Shown: in pieces, positions 39,648 through 42,324 of the stretch
How the letters are laid out: each line of letters opens with the position of its first letter
Position numbering within the stretch: position 1 is the first letter of the stretch
DNA from: Terriglobales bacterium
Lineage (GTDB): Bacteria > Acidobacteriota > Terriglobia > Terriglobales > Acidobacteriaceae
Reading direction: 5' to 3'
Assembly: GCA_035651655.1 (NCBI GenBank)
Contig: DASRFG010000023.1
Location: forward strand, 558,001 to 622,000
DNA: 64,000 nt
Program-made: the position numbers and the translations under genes
Notes under the pieces: model-generated
The model's input: only the letters and a program-made list of their open reading frames with translations
What the model was told of the DNA's origin: nothing
The model's database searches: none

Positions 39648-41108
<1,461 letters not shown>

Positions 41109-41142
41109 TCAAGCTTCTTTGCTGTTCTACAGTCGCCATCAG

Positions 41143-41640
41143 ATGAGGGAGAGCACGGGGACTCTCCAGATCGGAGATCGAGCACCGGAGTTCACTCTGC
41201 CGGCAGCCAATCGTGAGGGCGAGGTTTCGCTTTCCGGCCTGCTGCGGCATGGACCGGTGATTTTGGAGTTTTTGCGCGGCACCTGGTGACCGAACTGCGT
41301 GAAGCGCATGGCTCAGGCTGAGCCCCTAACGGAGCAGATTGCACAAGCCAATGCGTCCCTGGTTTACATCGCGGCTGAGAAACGAAACGGGATTTTTCAT
41401 CCGGAGAGGTTTTTGGGCGAGCATCCCATTTCATTTCCCTTCCTGCTGGACGAGGATCGCAGGGTGACCAAGGCCTATGGCTTGCACCACCGCTTTGGCC
41501 ATGACGCATTAAACATTGCGCACCCGGCCACGTTGGTGATTGATCGTGATGGGACCATGCGATTCATTTATCGCAGCAAAAACCAAGTCGACCGTGCGCC
41601 GCTTGAGCACGTAATGGATGCACTTCGCAAGCTGAAGTAA
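41143..41640 (+). CDS. Candidate selenoprotein: AhpC/TSA-type redoxin with in-frame TGA (UxxC)
   Basis: A 165-residue thioredoxin-fold redoxin if TGA at 41287-41289 is read as selenocysteine (residue 49). Before it: IGDRAPEFTLPAANREGE and VILEFLRGTW. After it: PNCVKRMAQAEPLTEQIAQA, the SFPFLLDEDRRVTKAYGL block, the cis-Pro strand HPATLVIDRDGTMRFIYRS and a normal end. The TGA falls exactly on the first Cys of a GTWCxxC motif; C52 is kept. A stem-loop follows (41310-41324). ATG 41143 has no clear ribosome site. The frame stays open upstream with a hydrophobic stretch (41071-41130) that lacks a good start. A Cys-to-stop pseudogene or a sequencing error are the alternatives. It is followed at 28 bases by the 41668 gene. 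Confidence 0.75.
41295..41337 (+). promoter_or_regulatory. Putative bacterial SECIS element
   Basis: Downstream of the in-frame TGA, GGCTC (41310-41314) and GAGCC (41320-41324) form a perfect 5-bp stem closing the loop AGGCT. The loop begins 25 bases after the TGA and has G in its second position, within the accepted spacing for bacterial SECIS elements and close to the AGGUCU loop of E. coli fdhF. CTGC (41295-41298) and GCAG (41334-41337) can close a lower stem. Confidence 0.6.
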
Positions 41641-41667: not shown

Positions 41668-42324
41668 ATGAAGAGAGCTGGGCTTTTGATTTGCTTGATG
41701 TTGCTGTCCGCCGCCGCGGTTGCGCAGAGCAGCTTGTCGCTCCCCGTGGGCACAGCGGTGAAAATGAAATTGCAGATTACGCTGGCCACCTTCACTACCA
41801 GGGTGGGCAGCCAATTCTATGGTCGCGTAAGCGAGCCGGTGATGCTGGGCAATCGGATAGTTATTCCCCTCGGGTCGGAGATCAAGGGCCATATCACCAG
41901 GATCAGCGAACCGCGCCGGATTGCCGGCAAGCCGACCATCGGCTTGCGTCCCGATACGGTCACACTTCCCAATGGCCAGGAGTACGCGCTGAGCGCTGTG
42001 CTCGTGGACACCAATGTTGGACACGGCACTGACGTTAACGATGAAGGCCAGTTCAAAGGTAGCGGCCACGATAAGTATGATCTGCGCGAGTCTGCTGCCG
42101 GTACTGGCGGAGGCGTTGTAATTGGCGCGTTAGTTGGTGGCGCCCAGGCTGGCATCATTGGCGCGGGAATTGGCGCCGGTGCAACCATGGTCCATTGGCT
42201 GGTGAAGCGCAGGTCCGCTACGCTGCCTGCCGGAACCGAATTAGTGCTGGAGTTAAGCCGCCCTGTTAGCATCACGCCGGCAGCCGGGGTCGCAACCGGC
42301 GCTGCCGGTGGCGGCTCGTTGTAG
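41668..42324 (+). CDS. Secreted VirB10/TrbI-like envelope protein (paralogue B)
   Basis: A 218-residue secreted protein with a signal peptide ending in AAAVAQ. ATG 41668 is chosen because GCAGGAGG lies just before it. It has the same arrangement as the gene at 22254-22979: LPVGTAVKMKLQITLATFTT, GNRIVIPLGSEIKGHITRIS, LPNGQEYALSAVLVD, a Gly/Ala glycine-zipper-like stretch (GGVVIGALVGGAQAGIIGAG) and a last strand LPAGTELVLELSRPV. Its close spacing behind the redoxin suggests cotranscription. An envelope role is inferred; no secretion apparatus is near. Confidence 0.6.
   Translation: MKRAGLLICLMLLSAAAVAQSSLSLPVGTAVKMKLQITLATFTTRVGSQFYGRVSEPVMLGNRIVIPLGSEIKGHITRISEPRRIAGKPTIGLRPDTVTLPNGQEYALSAVLVDTNVGHGTDVNDEGQFKGSGHDKYDLRESAAGTGGGVVIGALVGGAQAGIIGAGIGAGATMVHWLVKRRSATLPAGTELVLELSRPVSITPAAGVATGAAGGGSL

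Follow-up and report, generated by a model that had tools for sequence, protein, structure and literature searches.

A gene on the plus strand of the 64,000-nucleotide stretch analysed here (the window) almost certainly encodes a selenoprotein, in which SelB-guided decoding of an in-frame UGA would place selenocysteine (Sec) at residue 49 of a UxxC thioredoxin-fold redox protein with Cys52 as the resolving residue. This reading rests on the position and conservation of the TGA codon, a downstream hairpin with paired changes, the selenocysteine machinery of the source genome and a fold model; that Sec is inserted, how the enzyme turns over and what it acts on are what we infer from these. The features of the locus are as follows.

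39648..41021 (mechanical ORF limits), minus strand: enolase, divergent neighbour (Enolase_C, 429.7 bits), outside the proposed mechanism.
41105..41133, plus strand: TTGTTC-N17-TACAGT, a promoter-like element lying 9 nt ahead of the start codon, its pattern found in related loci.
41143..41640, plus strand: predicted Prx-like redoxin selenoprotein gene (read-through frame, Pfam matches, and N-terminus, C-terminus and TGA kept in homologues).
41287..41289, plus strand: in-frame TGA, predicted Sec49, the U of UxxC (TGA also in 53/54 family homologues, in locus L035 and in 9/9 homologues from other families of the phylum).
41296..41298, plus strand: Cys52 (TGC), the C of UxxC and probable resolving residue, invariant in a 30-row alignment (A2).
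41310..41324, plus strand: bSECIS-type hairpin inside the coding sequence (paired changes, RNAalifold, model scan).
41668..42324, plus strand: 218-aa protein, downstream neighbour; its N-terminus looks signal-like by eye, and it matches no Pfam family at E <= 0.001.

Read from the ATG at 41143, the frame meets TGA at 41287-41289 and ends with TAA at 41640, giving a read-through product of 165 residues. Around codon 49 it reads LEFLRGTW-U-PNC-VKRMAQ (motif GTW-U49-P-N-C52). These coordinates and the intact C-terminus had been given in a preliminary description and were confirmed on the sequence, as was its truncated 113-residue call from 41299, which is the mechanical ORF from GTG 41299. The read-through product was matched best by the Pfam family Redoxin (PF08534; 79 bits, residues 10-148) and also by AhpC-TSA (PF00578; 73.9 bits, residues 10-141). 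When mechanical ORFs of 300 aa or more are taken from the window without overlap, 8 of 27 end in TGA, and the codon is an ordinary stop here; global reassignment of TGA was therefore rejected as the reason for the in-frame codon.

The structure model of the read-through protein (pLDDT 93.1, pTM 0.90) had Bcp, PrxQ and AhpE as its closest fold matches. Aligned to solved chains, Sec49 fell on Ser (2cx3) or Thr (2ywn) and Cys52 on the next Cys, which we take to be the peroxidatic Cys of those proteins. The classical peroxiredoxin signature is PxxxTxxC with a peroxidatic Cys; it is absent from the window protein, where residues 45, 49 and 52 are R, U and C. The AhpC/TSA type assigned in the preliminary description was thus upheld for the fold and not for the chemistry, Sec49 aligning to the Thr/Ser of TxxC and not to the peroxidatic Cys. 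None of the NCBIfam models reached its cut-off with the window protein; a ResA-type thiol-disulfide oxidoreductase was among the nearest, far below cut-off, and ResA and SelL-related models were the commonest NCBIfam matches of the 30 aligned A2 members. Since Sec49 stands where peroxiredoxins have Thr/Ser, we favour thioredoxin-like chemistry over that of classical peroxiredoxins, and by analogy with the chemistry of the family the protein most likely works as a UxxC enzyme of the thioredoxin type built on the fold of a peroxiredoxin. A selenoprotein that acts as a classical peroxiredoxin and mainly reduces peroxides would suit the Redoxin and AhpC-TSA domains and the PrxQ/Bcp/AhpE fold matches; the placement of Sec49 and Cys52, the absent signature and the ResA-type model among the nearest matches all count against it, and we consider it rather unlikely.

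For the thioredoxin-type UxxC enzyme, the proposed sequence of events would run as follows. SelB loaded with Sec-tRNA(Sec) would bind the hairpin at 41310-41324 during translation, and the UGA at 41287-41289 would be decoded as selenocysteine. The product would have 165 residues and a thioredoxin fold and would belong to the Prx-like/redoxin group. Sec49 would serve as the attacking selenolate and act on a peroxide or a disulfide, both of which are possible substrates. Cys52 would resolve the intermediate as a selenenylsulfide, which thioredoxin or a similar donor would then reduce.

Proteins of this kind are already known. Prx-like UxxC/UxxU and redoxin UxxC selenoproteins are catalogued in sections of the reviews PMC13188914 and PMC9312934, and marine Prx-like UxxC families are described in a section of PMC2398784. 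For Acidobacteria, four selenoproteins of three families are tabled in a section of PMC1794560, and three selenoprotein genes are given for Occallatibacter riparius in a section of PMC12013277. The window gene adds to the catalogued UxxC Prx-like/redoxin selenoproteins, combining U49-P-N-C52 with both the PF00578 and the PF08534 domain. Compared with the catalogue sections by description, it shares with the Prx-like thiol:disulfide oxidoreductase selenoproteins (PF00578, UxxC/UxxU) the domain family, the UxxC motif and Sec at the first redox position; unlike the description of that class, the window family often adjoins enolase. With the catalogued redoxin selenoprotein (PF08534, UxxC), compared in the same way, it shares the best Pfam match and the motif, and by this comparison of domain and motif the window family may be that redoxin family. 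The SelL-related redox protein model NF040769 was matched weakly by the window protein (41.6 bits vs a cut-off of 120 bits) and by 30/30 A2 members at E <= 1e-5. Peroxiredoxin (Prx) selenoproteins of the TxxU type have the same fold as the window protein and have members in the same genome (L097, L101 and L102); in the UxxC of the window protein, Sec stands three residues earlier than in their TxxU.

Conservation of the codon was assessed in a first set of 61 genomes (the source genome and 60 relatives; close homologue defined by E <= 1e-25), 16 of which had a close homologue, with TGA at codon 49 in 16/16. A second set of 300 genomes was sampled from the same family; 54 carried the gene, and codon 49, which was read in all 54, was TGA in 53 and TGC in one. 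The family is taken to be Acidobacteriaceae and the phylum Acidobacteriota from the label of locus L050, whose genome is one of the same-family set. The preliminary description had expected Cys or TGA here in close relatives and had argued that a chance nonsense mutation would rarely hit this codon; the relatives agree with the first statement, and the recurrence of TGA at one codon in 53/54 homologues goes beyond chance. In 396 genomes sampled across the phylum, a profile search (E <= 1e-30) gave 14 matches, each of which carries a TGA in frame. Nine of the 14, from other families, were new, the other five being known from before; the nine new homologues had TGA at the UxxC position in every case, two of them with a second TGA at the C-terminal end. 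TGA was also found at codon 49 of L035, from another family of the class. Among more distant redoxins, Cys codons (TGC/TGT) stood at this place in L037-L041 and similar loci and Thr codons in L051-L053, so that the in-frame UGA is aligned to Cys both in these redoxins and in the TGC copy (L050/L093). A single scan of genome contigs with the query P0001 returned six loci, with L050 as the sole close homologue. Frame damage had been named beforehand as a finding that would speak against a selenoprotein. Such damage, or likely assembly errors, was seen in 4/54 family homologues: the frame is broken in G001, G009 and G323, G323 also has a second TGA, and G317 has an additional TAA. The rest were free of it.

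The sole TGC copy, L050, came from an Edaphobacter aggregans MAG (G324) and is the same place as L093 in G090; from identical match places and identical sequence around the codon, G090 and G324 appear to be one genome. No SelB over cut-off was found in the TGC-bearing genome, its one tRNA-Sec match over cut-off was called tRNA-Ser by ARAGORN, and no hairpin at the TGC copy fits under the bSECIS model. Enolase and the downstream neighbour gene were both found at the locus. In a tree of 39 rows (midpoint root, 22 of 36 forks open, bootstrap unsettled), the TGC row lay inside a 29-row group of which the other 28 rows were all TGA (support 95/89). This nesting makes a change from Sec to Cys in one relative most likely, ahead of a fresh Cys-to-Sec change in the window gene, and the midpoint-rooted tree suggests that TGA is the older state in the family and the single TGC derived. 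A TGC-to-TGA change in the window gene had been assumed in the preliminary description; the homologues point the other way. The family thus offers a natural experiment, with Cys at the same locus in one homologue and the hairpin and SelB missing there too.

A search of the genome for selA, selB, selD and a selC tRNA(Sec) had been proposed, and all four were found in the source assembly (39 contigs, 99.78% complete). SelA scored 464 bits, SelB 358 bits (cut-off 242) and SelD 361 bits (cut-off 125; G000:C24:84020-84976, L111), and a tRNA with anticodon tca scored 66.8 bits (cut-off 47) and was named tRNA-Sec by two programs. The selD gene has an in-frame TGA of its own, and this selenophosphate synthetase is probably itself a selenoprotein. 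In 14 control genomes, SelA, SelB and SelD were each over cut-off in two and the tRNA-Sec model in five, so that of these four markers the tRNA score by itself is the least specific. Among the 61 genomes, each of the 16 that bear the gene had SelA at more than 370 bits, and 14/16 had SelB over cut-off; G028 carried the TGA gene, SelA and tRNA-Sec with no SelB over cut-off, and G035 carried the same three with SelB as a fragment only. The gene was found in 0/13 genomes without strong SelA (P = 0.011 assuming independent genomes, whereas the genomes are related, and several of the 13 are incomplete assemblies). G019, G033 and G034, over the SelA cut-off at 24-29 bits only, were counted as without SelA, which gives 48 instead of 51 SelA-bearing genomes of 61; 32 of the 48 were without the gene.

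A second match to the tRNA-Sec model was over cut-off in the source genome (L002 1501-1585, minus strand; G000:C25:154857-154942; 56.4 bits). It was rejected as tRNA-Sec despite its score, being a type II tRNA with anticodon TAT; by eye it has an 8/4 acceptor/T-arm, and it resembles the allo-tRNA(UAU) genes reported, in a section of PMC7609411, for soil samples and an Edaphobacter strain. Within the 64-kb window, ARAGORN found no tRNA and an Rfam scan at gathering scores gave no match.

The stem GGCTCA/TGAGCC of the hairpin pairs 41310-41315 with 41319-41324 (6 bp) around the apical loop GGC (41316-41318), and the UGA-to-loop distance is 26 nt. bSECIS rules set out in a section of PMC13188914 ask for G in the first two positions of the loop, frequently with G/U next, and for a loop 16-37 nt after the UGA; the window hairpin conforms in stem, loop and distance. 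The model fitted 58/63 TGA loci vs 248/1892 window TGAs (13.1%). The 5/63 loci outside the 5-bp model miss it because of a C-A mismatch, and L035 and L119, among the 58, fit by a different pairing. RNAalifold recovered the same hairpin with a 5-pair core.

Pairs were counted in the 47 TGA loci that match a strict motif, namely L035 and 46 of the 53 loci from the family; in the seven uncounted family loci (L033, L072, L073, L082, L088, L089 and L095) the five core pairs form on reading. In the alignment of the 47, 97.9% of the cells of the five core pairs are paired. At pair 25-37 the letters were G-C in 28, G-U in 10 and A-U in nine with no mismatch, and pair 27-35 was U-A in 40, C-G in two and mismatched in five. 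The covariation score (0.200 vs 0.129 in shuffles) and the number of cells changed on both sides (11 vs 3.8 in shuffles) were each above all 500 shuffles, and every slid register did worse than the hairpin register in the covariation test. The number of pairs with a change on both sides (134/500 shuffles as high) and the number of further pair types (497/500 as high) were not beyond shuffles. These covariation counts are of cells and not of events: a single genus, g28, which contains G-U rows too, supplies all nine A-U rows, and L026 and L090, the only C-G rows, are sisters in the tree, so two events could suffice within the family. Several of the hairpin changes alter amino acids (Ala/Thr, Pro/Ser, Glu/Gly). 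In L122-L127, from more distant families, the stem letters are wholly different and a GUU-type loop is kept, and in L122 and L127 the place of the hairpin differs as well; these distant hairpins make a stronger case that the structure is maintained independently than do the pair changes within the family. Together with the Sec genes and the TGA or TGC at codon 49 of relatives, the SECIS-type hairpin supports the candidate selenoprotein proposed in the preliminary description. The hairpin alignments also provide material for testing which features acidobacterial SelB recognises. A second mini-hairpin, in which alignment columns 10-14 pair with 18-22, lies nearer the UGA; it was dropped, having no double-sided changes.

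It is very improbable that a suppressor tRNA or simple readthrough puts Cys, Trp or some residue other than Sec at the UGA. Some bacteria have tRNA-Sec-like tRNAs that insert Cys or Ser, according to a section of PMC7609411, and the source genome holds the allo-tRNA-like gene described above, though its anticodon is TAT; against suppression stand the tca tRNA identified as tRNA-Sec by two programs, the presence of SelA, SelB and SelD, the agreement of the hairpin with published bSECIS rules and the lack of a SelB over cut-off in the sole TGC relative. A pseudogene, derived from an ordinary Cys redoxin by a nonsense mutation and giving only a truncated or restarted product, would account for a TGA that is a normal stop in the source genome, for the 113-aa mechanical ORF and for the other frame damage in 4/54 family homologues, and is dismissed as highly improbable given TGA at the same codon in nearly all family homologues with conservation on both sides, TGA in each of the nine homologues that other families in the phylum contributed, the paired changes of the hairpin and the Sec machinery of the genome.

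With the window gene read as a selenoprotein gene, standard gene calling would shorten it, or label it a broken gene, in those Acidobacteriaceae that have it, and for this reason such bacteria may be credited with too few selenium-dependent redox enzymes. We give about even credence to a broader picture, that of an acidobacterial family spread across the phylum in which Sec is near-fixed and older, whose window member falls below all NCBIfam cut-offs, which often lies by enolase in the main family, which may be expressed from a near-leaderless mRNA and forms part of a large Sec-redoxin set in one genome, and in which one Sec-to-Cys switch is seen, with hairpin and SelB absent.

By tblastn over short flanks, and with L050 and L093 being one place, enolase was found beside the gene in 44/65 loci and the 218-aa neighbour in 43/65. 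The pattern TTGT[TCG]C-N15-19-TAN[AT][GT]TC was present upstream in 29/49 related loci vs 0.0004 per letter-shuffled sequence, with the element 59 nt from codon 1 in one of the 29. The loci are related, and conservation of the promoter-like element alone is therefore weak evidence; with the element as close as 9 nt to the ATG, the mRNA may have almost no leader.

In the source genome, 6/14 PF00578 (AhpC-TSA) matches have an in-frame TGA, the window gene among the six. The five further TGA redoxin-type genes (L097, L101, L102, L104 and L110, at G000:C6, C25, C28, C23 and C37) have the TGA at what looks like a redox position, as read in the source genome alone. We take L097, L101 and L102 to be TxxU types and L104, like the window gene, to be a UxxC type; L110 is presumably a deiodinase-like protein, with the motif GSYTUPPF.
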